Shown piece by piece: positions 2,566-13,485 of a stretch of 37,654 bases of DNA (positions within the stretch are counted from its first letter, which is position 1; each line of letters begins with the position of its first letter). Location: NCBI GenBank assembly GCA_947074185.1, contig CAMTOO010000011.1:1-37654 (forward strand). Reading direction: 5' to 3'. The DNA comes from an uncultured Negativicutes bacterium. GTDB lineage: Bacteria; Bacillota; Negativicutes; Acidaminococcales; Acidaminococcaceae. The notes below the pieces were generated by a model. It did no database searches. It had not been told where the DNA came from and saw nothing but the letters and a program-made list of their open reading frames with translations. The translations under genes and the position numbers were made by a program.

Positions 2566-3189
2566 ATGAGTACAGATAATTCATCTCAACACGTTCAAAT
2601 TGCTGTTGCGGATCCTACGCCGCTTGGTCTTTTTGGACTCGCAATCGTAACTTTCGTTGCTTCAATGCAAAAACTTGGTATCGTTTCTGATGTTTCTTGG
2701 GTAATTCCTTGGGCTTTAGTATGCGGTTCCTTCGCACAACTAGTTGCTTCCTATTTTGACTATTGTCACAAAAACATTTTCGGAGCAACAATCTTTGGTG
2801 CTTTTGGCTTCTTCTGGTCCGGAGTTGCTATGAGCTGGATGATTAAAGCAGGCGTTTTCGGTGCTGGCCTTCAAGCTGGTGTTGATGCAAAAGCTTTAGG
2901 TTTCGCTTTCTTAGGTTATTTCGTATTTGCTGTAATCGGCACAATTGCTGCTGCTGAAGCAAACACATTCCTTTTTGTTGATATGCTCTTAATCGACGTA
3001 TTATTACTTTGCCTTGCTCTTGATACTCTTGGTATCGGCGGTCACTGGGCACACGGCGTTGCAGCTTATTCTGAGCTCTTAATCGCTATGTTATCCATGT
3101 ACGGTGCAGGTGCAACATTCTTAAATGGTTTCTATGGCAGAGTTTTCTGGCCACTTGGCAAACCTTTAGGAATCTGGAAAAAAGGTTAA
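2566..3189 (+). CDS. Acetate/succinate uptake transporter, YaaH/SatP (GPR1/FUN34) family
   Basis: This 207-residue membrane protein has six predicted helices and the family signature near the N-terminus (DPTPLGLFGLA, residues 16-26, for the usual NPxPLGL). SatP-type proteins move acetate and/or succinate across the cytoplasmic membrane. The strong promoter, near-consensus SD and dedicated terminator suggest high, monocistronic expression. In a Negativicutes-like anaerobe a monocarboxylate or succinate channel would fit succinate-to-propionate or acetate metabolism, but the substrate cannot be read from sequence. GC is slightly higher than in neighbours, consistent with a highly expressed gene. 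Confidence 0.9.
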   Translation: MSTDNSSQHVQIAVADPTPLGLFGLAIVTFVASMQKLGIVSDVSWVIPWALVCGSFAQLVASYFDYCHKNIFGATIFGAFGFFWSGVAMSWMIKAGVFGAGLQAGVDAKALGFAFLGYFVFAVIGTIAAAEANTFLFVDMLLIDVLLLCLALDTLGIGGHWAHGVAAYSELLIAMLSMYGAGATFLNGFYGRVFWPLGKPLGIWKKG

Positions 3190-3299: not shown

Positions 3300-3764
3300 A
3301 TGGATGATAACAAAGTTACCTCTAATAAGTATGTAGAAGATGTTCCGGCTTATATTCAAGCAGTGTATAGAAATAATAACTTTATGGCTAAGTTTTTTGA
3401 TGTTTGCATTGATGAAATTCATTGCGGCGGAGCAACTGTTAGCTTGGATATTGATCCAGAAAAACATATGAATCACAGAGGCGTTGTGCATGGTGGTGTT
3501 TTAACTGCGCTTGCAGATGCTGTTCTTGGTGTTACTTGTGCAAGTGTTGGCGAAAAAGTTGCTACACTTAATTCAAACATGAATTTTATCAGGAATGTTA
3601 ATAAGCCTTGTAAAATACTTGTTAAAAGCACTATTAAACATCACGGTCATACTACAATGGTAGTTTATGCAGAGATGTTTAATGAAAATGACGAACTTAT
3701 GGCAACTGTTTTAAATACAATGTTTGTTGTAGATCATTTTGAAGAAATTCCGCGTAAGTGGTAA
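3300..3764 (+). CDS. Hotdog-fold thioesterase, PaaI family
   Basis: This 154-residue hotdog protein carries the PaaI-type signature HRGVVHGGVLTALADAVLG (residues 59-77). His64-Gly65-Gly66 and Asp73 are at the positions used for acyl-thioester hydrolysis in the family. Length is normal for one hotdog domain, and the protein is presumably cytosolic and oligomeric. The substrate is an unknown acyl-CoA. It is the first gene of a tight unit: the aminotransferase-like gene follows after 18 nt and the membrane protein overlaps that one. A cleavage role on a small acyl-CoA coupled to those genes is inference. Confidence 0.88.
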   Translation: MDDNKVTSNKYVEDVPAYIQAVYRNNNFMAKFFDVCIDEIHCGGATVSLDIDPEKHMNHRGVVHGGVLTALADAVLGVTCASVGEKVATLNSNMNFIRNVNKPCKILVKSTIKHHGHTTMVVYAEMFNENDELMATVLNTMFVVDHFEEIPRKW

Positions 3765-3782
3765 AAATATTTGGAGGCATTG

Positions 3783-4649
3783 ATGAAAAAATTAGTTTTA
3801 GTAAATGGTGAAATTCTAGAGTGGGGGCAAGAGTCTATTAGCGTAGCAGATAGAGGTCATCAATTTGGCGATGGCGTTTTTGAAGTTGTGCCGGTATATA
3901 ATGGACGTGCATTTGCTATTTTACCGCACATGGATAATTTACTTGAAGATGCGATTAAAGTTAAAATTCCAGCAATCTATACAGTTGAGGAATTAGTAGA
4001 ATTCCACGAAGCTCTTATTGCTGAGTCTGGTGTTAGCGATTGCGAAATTTATACGCAAATTACTCGTGGCGCAGGGGATTATATCTTATCTTTCCCTGAA
4101 TTAAGTGTTCCACAACTTACTATGTATATTATTCCTGTAGACCGCGAAGCTCTTGAAGAAAAACGTGCTAAAGGCGTAAATATCATTACCGAAGTAGATG
4201 AACGCTGGGCTAAATGCGATGTAAATACTTTGAATCGTTTGCCGGAAGTGCTTGCAAGACAAAAAGCTCGTGAAAGTCGCGCTTTTGATAATCTTTTCAT
4301 CCGTGATGGAAAAGTTACTGAAAGTACTGAATCTACTTTCATGGTAGTAAAAGATGAAATGCTTTGGACTCATCCAGAAAACAAGTTTATTCATAAAAAC
4401 ATTACTAGACGTCTTATTAAAGAGCGTTTAGCTGCTGATTTAGATATGCAAGTTATTGAAAAAGCTTTTGATATGGAATTTGTATTAAAAGCTGATGAAG
4501 CGTTCTTATGCGGACCTAGAGTAGGTATCATGCCTGTTACTAAAATCGATCGTACTCACGTTGGGGATGGTCATGTTGGGGCAGTAGTACCGAAATTAAT
4601 TGCTGCTTATAATGCTTTTGTAGAGAGGGAATGTCCTAAAAAATCATGA
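3783..4649 (+). CDS. Class IV aminotransferase (D-amino acid aminotransferase-like) lacking catalytic residues
   Basis: 288 residues. ATG 3783 is chosen because GGAGG (3773-3777) lies 5 nt upstream, inside the longer TTG-started frame. It aligns along its whole length with D-amino acid aminotransferase: DRGHQFGDGVFEVV (23-36), ERWAKCDVNTLN (140-151), KVTESTEST (177-185). The PLP-binding lysine of the CDIKSLN motif is Asn148. The phosphate-binding Arg of HIDRL is Asn52. The carboxylate-binding Arg and His after TRG are Tyr100 and Leu102. The Tyr of GDGVYE is Phe33, and the Ser/Thr phosphate loop reads CGPRVG (243-248). Only the pyridine-contact Glu180 is kept. The frame is intact and well translated. 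It is likely a pseudoenzyme or repurposed fold, not an aminotransferase. It overlaps the next gene by 4 nt (ATGA). Confidence 0.88.
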   Translation: MKKLVLVNGEILEWGQESISVADRGHQFGDGVFEVVPVYNGRAFAILPHMDNLLEDAIKVKIPAIYTVEELVEFHEALIAESGVSDCEIYTQITRGAGDYILSFPELSVPQLTMYIIPVDREALEEKRAKGVNIITEVDERWAKCDVNTLNRLPEVLARQKARESRAFDNLFIRDGKVTESTESTFMVVKDEMLWTHPENKFIHKNITRRLIKERLAADLDMQVIEKAFDMEFVLKADEAFLCGPRVGIMPVTKIDRTHVGDGHVGAVVPKLIAAYNAFVERECPKKS

Positions 4650-5149
4650 AAATAAACAATCTAACTAGAGCGGGGTTATTATTAGCACTTGCAATAGTTA
4701 TTCAATCAATAAGATTTATACTTCCGTTTCCAGGCGTGATGACAATGTTTTTAATAGGTTCGTTAATTAATATGATCCTAGTAATTGTTGTAAAAATTTC
4801 TGGAATAAAAGCAGGCGCAATATTTTCCCTTGTTTTACCTATAGTTGCTTATATGCAAGGACAGTTGGTATTAGCACCTTTGATAGGTGTAGTATTTTTA
4901 GGGAATTTAGCGTTAGTAATAGTTGCTTCTAGACTTGATGGTTTGAAAGAACTATTTGTAGGTCCAGCGCTTAAAACTTGTGCAATGTGGGCAAGTTGTG
5001 GTATTGTTCTACATCTTCTTAAAACACCTAAAGTGCTTGCAAATGGGCTTATGCTTATGATGAGCTGGCCACAGTTTATAACAGCGTTTGTAGGTATTTT
5101 GCTTGCGAGTTTTTTGTTGAAAAGATTTAAGTTTTTATATAACGAGTAG
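4646..5149 (+). CDS. Multi-pass membrane protein, possible ECF-type S component
   Basis: This 167-residue, very hydrophobic protein has about five to six membrane helices. Examples are residues 7-25 (AGLLLALAIVIQSIRFILP), 31-51, 57-75, 77-95, 107-125 and 138-157. Size and the N-terminal small-residue helix resemble substrate-binding S components of energy-coupling-factor transporters, but no substrate class is recognisable and no EcfA/EcfT gene is nearby. Its ATG overlaps the stop of the aminotransferase-like gene (ATGA), suggesting translational coupling. An orphan S component sharing a common ECF module encoded elsewhere is a reasonable reading; another small membrane family is possible. 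Confidence 0.7.
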   Translation: MKINNLTRAGLLLALAIVIQSIRFILPFPGVMTMFLIGSLINMILVIVVKISGIKAGAIFSLVLPIVAYMQGQLVLAPLIGVVFLGNLALVIVASRLDGLKELFVGPALKTCAMWASCGIVLHLLKTPKVLANGLMLMMSWPQFITAFVGILLASFLLKRFKFLYNE

Positions 5150-5900: not shown

Positions 5901-6455
5901 ATGGGGAATAAAAACAATTTCTTATTGGTTTTAGGGGGCTTGCTTTGTGCTGTTGGTATTGTTGTACCAATGTTTATGCCAAAAATAGTTTTGGGACCAA
6001 TGTCGTTTACGTTAGCTAGCCATGTGGCAATTTTTTTGGCGATGTTTATTTCTCCGAAACTTGCTGTGATGGTTTGTATTGGAACTACTATAGGTTTTTT
6101 CTTAACTACACCACTTATAATTGCTTTGCGTGCAGCAAGTCATATTGTGTTTGCGGTAATTGGAGCTATAATTATTAAGCGAAATCAAAAATGTTTAGAT
6201 GTATTATTTTATATTATATCTCTAAATGTTATTTTAGCAATTATTCATGCAGTAGCTGAAGTTGCAGTTGTATCACCGTTTTTCTTTGCAGGGATTATGT
6301 TTAGTCCGGAACAGTTAAGTGGTGGTTATATTACTAGTGTTTTAGTGCTAGTGGGTGGTGGGACATTTATACATTCTCTTGTAGATTTTATGCTTGCACT
6401 GTGTATCTGGAAACCACTATCTTCTGTGATAACTCCATTAAAAGAATTAAGATAA
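5901..6455 (+). CDS. ECF transporter S component-like membrane protein
   Basis: This 184-residue protein has about five to six membrane helices. The segment MPKIVLGPMSFTLASHVAIF (27-46), followed by MFISPKLAVM, then GFFLTTP and ALRAASHIVFAVIGA, is typical of small vitamin-transporter S components in Bacillota. SD AAAGGGGGG is about 8 nt upstream of ATG 5901. It is monocistronic: a tRNA terminator lies before it and a bidirectional terminator after it. No EcfA or EcfT lies nearby, so it would depend on a shared module. The substrate is not assignable; a niacin- or other vitamin-type substrate is only a guess. Confidence 0.7.
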   Translation: MGNKNNFLLVLGGLLCAVGIVVPMFMPKIVLGPMSFTLASHVAIFLAMFISPKLAVMVCIGTTIGFFLTTPLIIALRAASHIVFAVIGAIIIKRNQKCLDVLFYIISLNVILAIIHAVAEVAVVSPFFFAGIMFSPEQLSGGYITSVLVLVGGGTFIHSLVDFMLALCIWKPLSSVITPLKELR

Positions 6456-9335: not shown

Positions 9336-9393
9336 TACTTTAAATAATTAAAATCAGATTCGGGAAAAGTTAATTTGCTTTTTGGAGGAGAAT

Positions 9394-12300
9394 ATGGTTT
9401 CGATAACAATATTGTATCAAGATGTTGAGCAAATTGAGAGCTATATTGAAAAGGGTACATTAAACAGGCACAAGGAGTGTCTTATTCGTATACATGCAGC
9501 GGGAATATCTAATACGGATATAGAAGCTAAAATAGAGCAAATAATCAAGGTGGTACCTCTAGCTAAGATTATTGGTTGTTCTTCGTCTGGGATTATTTAT
9601 GAAGGTGAACAGTATGAAACGGGCATATTAGTTTCTATTTTTCAATTTGAGAAAATAGAAATTAAAACAACTATGGTTTCTTTCGCTGGATTAGAACCAG
9701 CAGATATTGCAAAAAAAGTTAAAGAAAACATTGGTGATTCCAATCCGGAAATGATGTTTGTTTTTGCAGGTGATTTATATCTTGGAATTAATCAATTGAC
9801 ATATTCTCTTGTTGAAAATTTTCACAACACACAGCTTGTTGGTGGCATGGCTGGCTATGCTAGACCTGATGGGGAAATAGATAGTTATGTTATTAATGGT
9901 ACAAGAACAGCTTATAATGCAGTGGCTGTAGCGGCTTTAATAGGAAATGGGCTTAATGTTTATACCAATGTAATTATAGGGCACGAACCTATTAGTGATG
10001 TTTATACTTTTAATAAAGTAAATCAAGATTATATAGAAGAAATTGAAGGAACGGACGCAGCAGCATGGATTCAAGCAGAGTTAGGCCTTACAAATATTGA
10101 AGGACGTAATAACTGGAGTATGATGGCTGCAACAGATCTTTTAACTAATTTTCCTCTCGTATTAGAAGATCGAAATGGAGCAGGGCGTTTTCTTCGCTAT
10201 GAACCTGAAGGAAATAGGATGCGGTTATATTTTTCTAAGCTTGATAAAGGGGAAAGATTTAGAATTGGTTATTTAAGTCCTCTTAAAAGTGCTGAAGAGT
10301 GGCAAGGGGTTTATAAAGATTTAGAAGTAAATAATGCTGATACTGTATTTGTGTATTCTTGTTTATTCCGAAAGCTTTATTTAGGGGAATGTTCCCAGTG
10401 GGAAGTTAGTCCTTTTAAACACAAAGGTATTCATGGAGCCTTTATGTTTGGGGAAATTGGTTCTGTAAACAAAAAGGTTGATTATCACAATGGTTGTTGC
10501 AGTTTTTGCGCTTTAGGCGAGAATTCAAAAGATTATGTATTACCGAATAGAACTAATTTAGACCATTTTTATAAAATTCAAGATGACAATAAAGAACTTT
10601 TAAATCAAGTATTAAAAATTCAAAGTGATAGCATCTATCGTTACAATCAAGAATTGATGCGAACTTTATTAGAGCAGGAAAAAATAATAAAAGATAGACT
10701 CTTTATAGATGAAACTTTTGGCCTAGAGAATATGGCGAAATTTAATCAAGACAGAGAGTCTTTTAAGCATGAAAAAATCTGTTTTGTTGGATTAGAAAAT
10801 TCACGTCAACTTTTTGCTGTAATGGGTGCTGGCAGATATAAAATTTTGGCAAGAGAGAATTTAAATAAGATAAAATCAATTATTGAAAGTGAATACCCAC
10901 GACTTCAAATTAAGTTTTATAGTTATGATTTTTCTTCTTTCTTTTTTGTAGTGCAAGAGGAAATTAGACAGGATGTATTTTTAGATTTAACTAGATATAT
11001 CTATTCTAAATTGAGAATAGGAAATTACTTAGACAATAGAGTAACTTGTAGTAACCGTTTTGTTGTAACCTTGAGCGGAGCTGATCCAAACGAGTTAATG
11101 AATATGGCTCTCGTAAAAGATGAAACATCACAAGATAGCGGTTATCAAATATGTGGACCTAATTATGATTCATCTAAAACTCTAAAGAAAGAATTAGATA
11201 CTATTGCAATATTAAATAATGTTATTAACAACAATGCAGTTGAACCATATTTCCAAGGCATATATGATAACGAAACAGGAGAGTTATTTGCTTATGAAGC
11301 ACTTATGCGTATTAAGGATAATGATGGCAATGTTTTAACTCCGTATGCTTTTATGGATATTGCTAAAAAATATCATCTTTATTTGCCACTTAGTCAGTGC
11401 ATGATTAAAAAGGTGTTTGAATTATTTAATGATAGGGACGAAAAAGTAAGTATAAATTTGTCCATGTATGACGTAACATCAGAAACAACCAATAAATTAA
11501 TTTTTGATTTATTAAAACAAGCAAAACATCCTGAAAATTTTATTTTCGAAATTTTAGAAAGTGAACAATTCGTAGATTTAGATAAGTTGCGTGTTTTTAT
11601 TCGCAACGTTAAAAGATATGGGGTTAAGATTGCAGTAGATGATTTTGGTACTGGTTATTCTAATTTCCTCGAGATAGGAAATATGGAAATTGATTATGTT
11701 AAAATCACAGGGTCTCTAGTAAGTGCCATAGGTACAGATGCCACTTATGACAAAATAATTAATAGTATTATGTATCTAAGTGAAAAAATTGGCGTAGATG
11801 TTATTGCGGAACAGGTAGAAAATGAGCAAATTCAAAAATATGTTTTGCAATGCGGAATAAAATATTCACAAGGTTATCTATTCTTTAAACCAGTTCCATT
11901 TGATGAAATTTCACCGATACCAATTACTCAAAAAAGAGAAACTATTGGCAAAATAAAAAAGAGTAATAGTTATTATACTAGATATATGGAATATGGAAGA
12001 AATCTTATTACAGCCGCTAACGTTTTGTTAGTTGTTGCGATAGTCTCGGCCGTAATGATTTTCGCTGATGTTAATAGAAAACAAGTAGAATCCACACATG
12101 ATACTTATTTATTAGAAATAACTACAGGTATGGCAGACAAAATATCCATGAAGCTCGATGATTCTATGGCGAAGTTAAACATTTTTAGTGATGCAATTAG
12201 TTATATGCCTGGGGATTCTGCCGCTATAAAAAATTTCCTAGAAAAAACCTATACTGATGTAATGTTTGACAATATGTATGCGTCAATTAATGGTGGTGAA

Positions 12301-13485
12301 TTAATAGCTCTTAGGGGTGATTATTCTAATATCAAGCTTGATGATTTTTACAAGGGGGGAGATCAAGCCCGATATATTAGCTCACCAGTAGCAAATCCGA
12401 TAACTAAAGAGAAAGTTTTCCTTATGGGAGTTACTCATAAGACGGAACGCGGAAATGTTAAAGTGATTGGTGAATTTAACATTAATAATTTATATAATAT
12501 CCTAGATTTAAAAAGTTTTGGGGGTAGAGCGTTCTTCCACATAAATGAAGTAAGTGGTACACCGATTCTTATTAGTAGTAATAATAACAATCTTTTTGCT
12601 ATGGACAATATGTATGATTTTATCGGAACCTTGGATATTAAAAATGGCTATACCCCAGAAATCATAAAAATTGAAATGAAAAGAGGTCGTAGCTGTTTAC
12701 TTAAATATAATATTAACGGTCAATCTAGGTCTGCTGTAATGATTCCTGTTCCAGGGACGCAGTGGTGTTTAGTAAGTATTATTACTGATGAAATTAATGA
12801 AAGGTTTGTTGGTACGATTAATCGTGAAACAATGTTTTTTGTTGGATTTATTCTATTAGCCTTTTTAAGTTATGTTTTAATTAATTTTATGATTACTAGA
12901 AGGGCTAAAAAAGATTTAATTCATGCGCTAGAGCAAAGTAACTATTTAGCTGGTAACTTGCAATTAAGTGTTGCGACAGATGCTCTTACAAAGGTGTATT
13001 CACGTGCGATGGTTCAAACTAAAATTGCAGATGCTATTGAAAAATCTAAAACCTCAGGAGCTGTACATGCAATACTAGAGCTAGATGTAGATAATTTTAA
13101 AGGTATTAATGATACTTATGGGCATCAAGTTGGAGATTTATATTTAACAGAATTAGCTACTACAGTTAAAAGTTGTTTACGAATAGGTGATATTATCGGT
13201 AGATTAGGTGGAGATGAATTTATAATTTTATTAGATAATATTGAATCTGAGGAAAAAGCTATAGATATCATTAATGATATTATGGAGAATTGCAAAGAGA
13301 TTGTTATTGATGGTGTCAATCTAGAAAATGTTACAGTTAGTATAGGCTTTGCAATGTGCCCTCAAGATTCTGATGATTATGAAACCTTAATCTACAAAGC
13401 AGATCACGCATTATATCAAGCAAAAGGCCAAGGGAAAAATTGCTACATACAATATAAAGATGAAGAGAGCTTTAGAGAGATTTAA
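9394..13485 (+). CDS. Hybrid c-di-GMP protein: FIST - degenerate GGDEF - EAL - TM - Cache-like - TM - GGDEF
   Basis: 1363 residues from ATG 9394; the SD GGAGGAG lies inside the longer TTG frame. Residues about 1-390 are a FIST ligand-sensor domain (IIGCSSSGIIYEG). About 430-560 resembles a GGDEF fold whose signature has decayed to SYDFS (510-514). The EAL domain follows, with Glu635 (YEALMRI), Asn688, Glu719, Asp749-Asp750 (DDFGTGYSN), Lys770 and Glu806 present, so it should hydrolyse c-di-GMP. Membrane helices at about 872-894 and 1146-1166 bracket a 250-residue Cache-like extracytoplasmic sensor. The C-terminal GGDEF is intact (1272-1276) and carries an RIGD inhibitory site (1263-1266) five residues before it. 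It thus has both synthase and phosphodiesterase potential under two sensors. It is a single-gene unit with no pilus or cellulose genes nearby. Confidence 0.92.
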   Translation: MVSITILYQDVEQIESYIEKGTLNRHKECLIRIHAAGISNTDIEAKIEQIIKVVPLAKIIGCSSSGIIYEGEQYETGILVSIFQFEKIEIKTTMVSFAGLEPADIAKKVKENIGDSNPEMMFVFAGDLYLGINQLTYSLVENFHNTQLVGGMAGYARPDGEIDSYVINGTRTAYNAVAVAALIGNGLNVYTNVIIGHEPISDVYTFNKVNQDYIEEIEGTDAAAWIQAELGLTNIEGRNNWSMMAATDLLTNFPLVLEDRNGAGRFLRYEPEGNRMRLYFSKLDKGERFRIGYLSPLKSAEEWQGVYKDLEVNNADTVFVYSCLFRKLYLGECSQWEVSPFKHKGIHGAFMFGEIGSVNKKVDYHNGCCSFCALGENSKDYVLPNRTNLDHFYKIQDDNKELLNQVLKIQSDSIYRYNQELMRTLLEQEKIIKDRLFIDETFGLENMAKFNQDRESFKHEKICFVGLENSRQLFAVMGAGRYKILARENLNKIKSIIESEYPRLQIKFYSYDFSSFFFVVQEEIRQDVFLDLTRYIYSKLRIGNYLDNRVTCSNRFVVTLSGADPNELMNMALVKDETSQDSGYQICGPNYDSSKTLKKELDTIAILNNVINNNAVEPYFQGIYDNETGELFAYEALMRIKDNDGNVLTPYAFMDIAKKYHLYLPLSQCMIKKVFELFNDRDEKVSINLSMYDVTSETTNKLIFDLLKQAKHPENFIFEILESEQFVDLDKLRVFIRNVKRYGVKIAVDDFGTGYSNFLEIGNMEIDYVKITGSLVSAIGTDATYDKIINSIMYLSEKIGVDVIAEQVENEQIQKYVLQCGIKYSQGYLFFKPVPFDEISPIPITQKRETIGKIKKSNSYYTRYMEYGRNLITAANVLLVVAIVSAVMIFADVNRKQVESTHDTYLLEITTGMADKISMKLDDSMAKLNIFSDAISYMPGDSAAIKNFLEKTYTDVMFDNMYASINGGELIALRGDYSNIKLDDFYKGGDQARYISSPVANPITKEKVFLMGVTHKTERGNVKVIGEFNINNLYNILDLKSFGGRAFFHINEVSGTPILISSNNNNLFAMDNMYDFIGTLDIKNGYTPEIIKIEMKRGRSCLLKYNINGQSRSAVMIPVPGTQWCLVSIITDEINERFVGTINRETMFFVGFILLAFLSYVLINFMITRRAKKDLIHALEQSNYLAGNLQLSVATDALTKVYSRAMVQTKIADAIEKSKTSGAVHAILELDVDNFKGINDTYGHQVGDLYLTELATTVKSCLRIGDIIGRLGGDEFIILLDNIESEEKAIDIINDIMENCKEIVIDGVNLENVTVSIGFAMCPQDSDDYETLIYKADHALYQAKGQGKNCYIQYKDEESFREI

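Follow-up and report, generated by a model that had tools for sequence, protein, structure and literature searches.

A D-amino-acid aminotransferase homologue without its catalytic lysine, maintained beside an ECF S-component-like gene in the Acidaminococcaceae

Bacteria of the family Acidaminococcaceae maintain a homologue of D-amino-acid aminotransferase (DAAT) in which the lysine that binds pyridoxal phosphate (PLP) has been replaced by asparagine and the surrounding pocket has been changed and then conserved. The gene described here, at 3783-4649, lies in the window, the whole 37,654-nucleotide stretch of DNA that was analysed, which comes from an uncultured Negativicutes bacterium (genome G000, 1.57 Mb) placed in the Acidaminococcaceae near Phascolarctobacterium. 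Its product is very probably not a Schiff-base aminotransferase, and its role very probably lies outside transamination. The best reading, to which we give slightly better than even weight, is a non-transaminase that selection maintains, with a link to a probable importer and a pocket rebuilt to hold a predicted ligand independently of PLP.

Phascolarctobacterium and Succiniclasticum are common in the gut and rumen, and in most relatives the lysine-less gene is the sole class IV "aminotransferase". Metabolic models that trust the annotation therefore assign a reaction that is probably absent. Repeated loss of the lysine within one enzyme lineage, alongside lysine-bearing sisters and a changed but conserved pocket, also offers a natural experiment in the repurposing of PLP enzymes. 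The coupling of the gene to an orphan ECF S component opens a route toward the ligand.

An aminotransferase fold with a remodelled pocket

The 3783-4649 protein matches PF01063 (Aminotran_4) with an E-value of 1.2e-29 and 104.2 bits, against a curated cutoff of 28.5. Its AlphaFold2 model, computed with the family alignment as input (pLDDT 92.4), superposes on the DAAT of Bacillus sp. YM-1 (bsDAAT, 1a0g) with a Z-score of 39.3 and a deviation of 1.1 Å over 279 residues. Domain score and predicted structure thus both place the protein in fold type IV, and the model predicts an unchanged fold. The top NCBIfam models are likewise DAAT models, which agrees with the expectation of the first-pass annotation that automatic tools would label the product an aminotransferase; the TIGR01121 score (226.6 bits), however, falls below the equivalog cutoff of 277.45, so that a cautious pipeline would say just "aminotransferase class IV".

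Pocket residues were assigned by alignment to bsDAAT, and 17 positions of the PLP, O- and P-pockets were tracked. This alignment bore out the substitutions that had been read from the sequence at first pass: K145 corresponds to N148, R50 to N52, R98 to Y100, H100 to L102 and Y31 to F33, with Glu180 intact. Two of these early observations needed qualification. Phe33 is present in the window protein but is not universal, as most of the Succiniclasticum group retains Tyr; and the phosphate loop is indeed altered (S240/T241/T242 to G244/P245/R246), but glycine at the Ser240 position is not specific, being found in 45% of lysine-bearing Negativicutes. In addition, the PLP-pocket residue Leu201 is His204 in the window clade, and Thr208, the counterpart of Thr205, is kept in 76% of the family at a position that drifts.

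Measured against what characterizes the DAATs of TIGR01121, the protein has Asn148 for the PLP lysine, Asn52 and Pro245 at sites of the Arg50 and Thr205/Thr241 phosphate grip, and Phe33/Tyr100/Leu102 for the Tyr31/Arg98/His100 carboxylate trap; the glutamate that contacts the pyridine nitrogen (Glu177) is present as Glu180. What these residues do in active DAATs has been described (PMC8401098, PMC10003956), and the same studies indicate that the canonical trap is also missing from some active enzymes, so its loss alone is not decisive.

The pocket has been rebuilt and not just emptied, since it combines new fixed residues, elevated conservation and the lack of Arg at position 52. In the window clade, identities reach 100% at N148, L102 and E180, 98% at P37, 95% at R152 and G244, 90% at P245, 89% at E183 (otherwise Asp), 86% at H204 and 84% at R246. 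Two of the new residues, Arg152 and Glu183, occupy the sites of bsDAAT L149 and S180, which belong to the O-pocket (PMC8401098). Weighted conservation over the 17 pocket positions is 0.84, compared with 0.733 over all sites of the clade (P 0.006). Table 1 gives the coordinates of these features.

Table 1. Features in and around the lysine-less gene (coordinates in the window)
Feature	Coordinates	Strand	Remarks
Hotdog-fold thioesterase, upstream neighbour	3300..3764	+	PF03061, 5.9e-14
Ribosome-binding site GGAGG (for ATG 3783)	3773..3777	+	read from sequence
Lysine-less D-amino-acid aminotransferase homologue (fold type IV)	3783..4649	+	288 aa, ATG 3783
Asn52 codon, PLP-phosphate Arg position (bsDAAT R50)	3936..3938	+	Arg absent family-wide
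Tyr100-Ile-Leu102, in place of carboxylate-trap Arg98/His100	4080..4088	+	Leu102 100%, Tyr/Phe100 90%
Asn148 codon AAT, PLP-lysine position (bsDAAT K145)	4224..4226	+	Asn in 44/44 family sequences covering the site
Arg152 codon, new O-pocket residue (bsDAAT L149)	4236..4238	+	95-98% family-wide; all lysine-bearing relatives have Leu
Glu180 codon, kept pyridine-N Glu (bsDAAT E177)	4320..4322	+	invariant everywhere
Glu183 codon, new O-pocket residue (bsDAAT S180)	4329..4331	+	Glu/Asp 100% family-wide; lysine-bearing relatives have Ser/Thr
CGPRVG in place of Ser/Thr phosphate loop	4509..4526	+	CGPRCE in most relatives
ECF-transporter S-component-like membrane protein	4646..5149	+	AF2 pLDDT 93.9; ATG overlaps the stop of the 3783-4649 gene

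Distribution, selection and repeated loss of the lysine

Orthologues occur in 45 of 59 genomes of the family, spread over 14 of 18 genera at roughly 50-75% identity; the window protein shares 75% with Phascolarctobacterium faecium and 53% with Succiniclasticum ruminis. Among these 59 genomes, the orthologue is absent from nine of one genus (g2) and from the sole genome of another (g3). Every copy that covers the site carries the asparagine, so Asn148 is neither chance nor a sequencing error. Reading frames are full-length in all family copies except those ending at a contig edge, and the median dN/dS (YN00) is 0.049 over 43 pairs of the window clade, next to 0.053 in a second lysine-less clade from family f20 and 0.064 in lysine-bearing relatives. 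With a ratio near 0.05 the gene is not decaying. A catalytic residue has thus been lost throughout a clade in which the gene is under purifying selection, as in a maintained pseudoenzyme, and together with the conserved but different pocket this supports the initial suggestion of either a maintained pseudoenzyme or a PLP-independent enzyme.

In other families of the Negativicutes, most orthologues sampled retain the lysine, and the gene descends from the DAAT of this class. In a tree built without the active-site columns, the window's family contributes 39 lysine-less rows, and these all form a single clade with support of 100. The f20 lysine-less clade, where the site holds Ala, Gly or Asn, is nested among lysine-bearing f20 sequences and has a lysine-bearing sister (support 98), and in one further genome (G088) the lysine is replaced by Arg. 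Three changes are required on this tree, and the lysine has been lost at least three times among Negativicutes DAATs. A topology constrained to hold every lysine-less row in one clade is worse by 74 log-likelihood units (AU p 0.0011), and one that joins only the window clade and f20 is worse by 53 (AU p 0.010); a single origin of all lysine-less forms is rejected by these AU tests (p 0.001-0.01).

Several features of the other lineages deserve record. The f20 lysine-less genes were located at L108 1576-2607, L105 3022-3924, L111 3060-3977 and L126 1483-2415, and their serine loop is often acidic (GEDANF). Downstream of two of them, at L105 4093-5466 and L111 4134-5501, lies a gene for a carboxylase/oxaloacetate-decarboxylase alpha-type protein, a call based on HMGL-like and PYC_OADA matches for L105 and on sequence likeness for L111. 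The G088 gene (L082 3046-3924) reads CDIRTTN, with Arg for the PLP lysine, and ADGTYE for GDGVYE, and keeps R50 and R98. In genome G313, two lysine-bearing DAAT genes stand in tandem (L094 2985-4879), the second forming a long branch.

The downstream membrane protein and the genomic neighbourhood

The gene that follows encodes a membrane protein whose predicted structure resembles the S components of ECF transporters: ranks 1-14 of the VIA-align search are all ECF S-component chains, with Z-scores from 15.2 (TmRibU) to 10.5. PF12822 (ECF_trnsprt) is reached by one orthologue (31.2 against a cutoff of 30.7) and gives no match to the 4646-5149 product. The window genome also holds three PF02361 (CbiQ family) matches above cutoff, that is, T components. 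On this structural modelling, the 4646-5149 product is probably the S component of a probable vitamin-type importer.

An S-component orthologue lies directly downstream of the lysine-less gene in 39 of the 45 family genomes, often overlapping it, which lends weight to the partnership with the adjoining membrane protein that had been proposed at first pass. The same gene also adjoins many lysine-bearing DAATs, or lies up to about 2 kb downstream of them. The two genes were therefore neighbours before the lysine was lost, and their adjacency need not account for a new function. What ties the two proteins together is gene order, and a shared ligand may be envisaged from it.

The partnership proposed with the thioesterase has fared less well. 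The hotdog gene is upstream solely in the window's genus and in a Succiniclasticum-like genus, and as a general partner it was rejected on these grounds. Elsewhere in the window, a GPR1/FUN34/YaaH gene (succinate/acetate permease family; 2566-3189) stands two genes upstream of the lysine-less gene; the named members of this lineage, Phascolarctobacterium and Succiniclasticum, are known succinate fermenters. Somewhat downstream of the S-component gene, 5901-6455 encodes a second small hydrophobic membrane protein (184 aa, probably polytopic) that has no Pfam or NCBIfam match, and 9382-13485 encodes a single chain of 1367 aa that joins FIST sensor, EAL and GGDEF domains.

Neither the window genome nor most family genomes hold another PF01063 protein. 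Glutamate racemase (MurI) is present in nearly all genomes of the family, which makes D-glutamate independent of the lysine-less protein; an essential role in D-Glu supply was rejected accordingly.

Possible functions and comparison with known systems

The gene derives from a Negativicutes DAAT. Lys145 changed to Asn in the ancestral lineage of this part of the Acidaminococcaceae, the phosphate Arg and carboxylate trap were lost, and Arg152, Glu183, His204, Pro245 and Arg246 became fixed in the pocket. According to the preferred reading, the dimer would be retained, and the pocket may bind a small ligand with no covalent PLP involved; the simplest candidate would be a carboxylated or amino-acid-like compound gripped by Arg152 and Arg246. 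The cytoplasmic protein could then act on what the S component imports, or serve as its acceptor or sensor. We regard it as moderately probable that the pocket serves ligand binding or a reaction independently of PLP, and is not a non-covalent B6 site. The full picture, in which a whole clade of fold type IV proteins has dropped PLP, turned the cofactor cavity into a new ligand site or a PLP-independent active site, and works in the cytosol together with an ECF importer of common succinate-fermenting gut bacteria, the lysine having been lost repeatedly in the same enzyme lineage, is offered only tentatively. The age of the S-component adjacency weighs against the preferred reading, as does the invariant glutamate at the E177 position, a binder of the PLP ring nitrogen whose retention would be surprising in a protein that never bound PLP. 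This invariance, together with the predicted unchanged fold and a vitamin-type transporter component next door, speaks for an alternative of lesser but real weight, namely that PLP or PMP is still bound non-covalently, with slow or partial chemistry through direct formation of the external aldimine, or that the protein stores or senses B6 vitamers, in partnership with an S component that imports B6. A K145N DAAT has reportedly been made, with partial reactions retained. The f20 lysine-less clade keeps Thr205, Thr241 and often Arg50, as though PLP were still bound there, and a laboratory K145Q DAAT has been examined kinetically (Bhatia 1993, the title being cited in PMC8105722), from which title weak PLP chemistry without the lysine would seem possible. 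In the window clade, however, no member has the phosphate Arg, Thr241 has become Pro, Thr205 drifts and Leu201 is His, all of which disfavours a B6 site. Rather unlikely, in our estimate, is a new PLP-independent enzyme with Asn148, Arg152, Glu183 and His204 as acid-base and binding residues; a conserved polar cluster does stand where the cofactor site was, and the hotdog thioesterase neighbours hint, in two genera, at acyl-CoA metabolism, but the same residues might merely bind a ligand.

The other explanations are improbable to differing degrees. Were the protein an active aminotransferase working through another lysine, it could draw on Lys190 and Lys254, both strongly conserved across the family, yet the family alignment has no Lys replacing Lys145 and none gained at or beside position 148, and the substrate and phosphate residues were lost along with the lysine. 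Lys144, whose placement in the catalytic pocket would have told against the first-pass reading, aligns with bsDAAT R141; relatives carry R, K, H, Q or F there, and for want of conservation it is rejected as a substitute. There is equally little to recommend a decaying relic without a function of its own, kept by operon polarity for the downstream gene: the overlap of start and stop codons would allow such translational coupling, but dN/dS near 0.05 across many genera, full-length frames and a conserved pocket with new charged residues tell against it. The slightest chance falls to a regulatory subunit paired with a catalytic class IV paralogue, analogous to LCB1 for serine palmitoyltransferase. 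Fold type IV transaminases are dimers whose active sites take residues from both subunits (PMC12429042), but most genomes lack a second PF01063 protein to act as the active class IV partner, so such a heterodimer is rejected and largely refuted.

Compared with known systems, the lysine-less protein shares with bsDAAT (PDB 1daa, 1a0g; TIGR01121) its entire fold, length and ancestry, 35% identity, the N-terminal DRGxxFGDG motif and Glu177, and differs from it at Lys145, Arg50, Arg98, His100, Leu149, Ser180, Leu201 and Thr241, all changed. The f20 and G088 homologues arose from the same parent enzyme by loss of the same lysine, f20 also being under purifying selection, but these losses are independent of that in the window clade. 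Unlike the latter, the f20 clade keeps Arg98, Thr205 and Thr241, with Arg50 in many members; its pocket conservation is not above average, and an S-component neighbour was not found beside its genes at the loci examined. These sequence differences suggest that the f20 clade had a different fate. The 4646-5149 model, in turn, has the fold of the ECF S components TmRibU, ThiT, PanT and FolT (PF12822; Z 9-15), though most of its family scores under the Pfam cutoff.

A parallel to the missing lysine comes from Variovorax paradoxus, whose aminotransferase-like protein is PDB 7z79, with an N174K mutant deposited as 9j32. A literature search for class IV aminotransferases that lack the lysine, and for the Variovorax structure, found no paper on either. 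With an Asn-bearing query, 7z79 scores 66.3 bits and 9j32 64.7; with a Lys-bearing query, the order is reversed (9j32 116.0, 7z79 113.8). From this swap and from the entry titles and numbering, an indirect form of residue correspondence, residue 174 is very probably the PLP-lysine position. Although distant from the window protein (24% identity), 7z79 thus very probably has a natural Asn at the same site, and probably provides a solved precedent for a lysine-less fold type IV protein.
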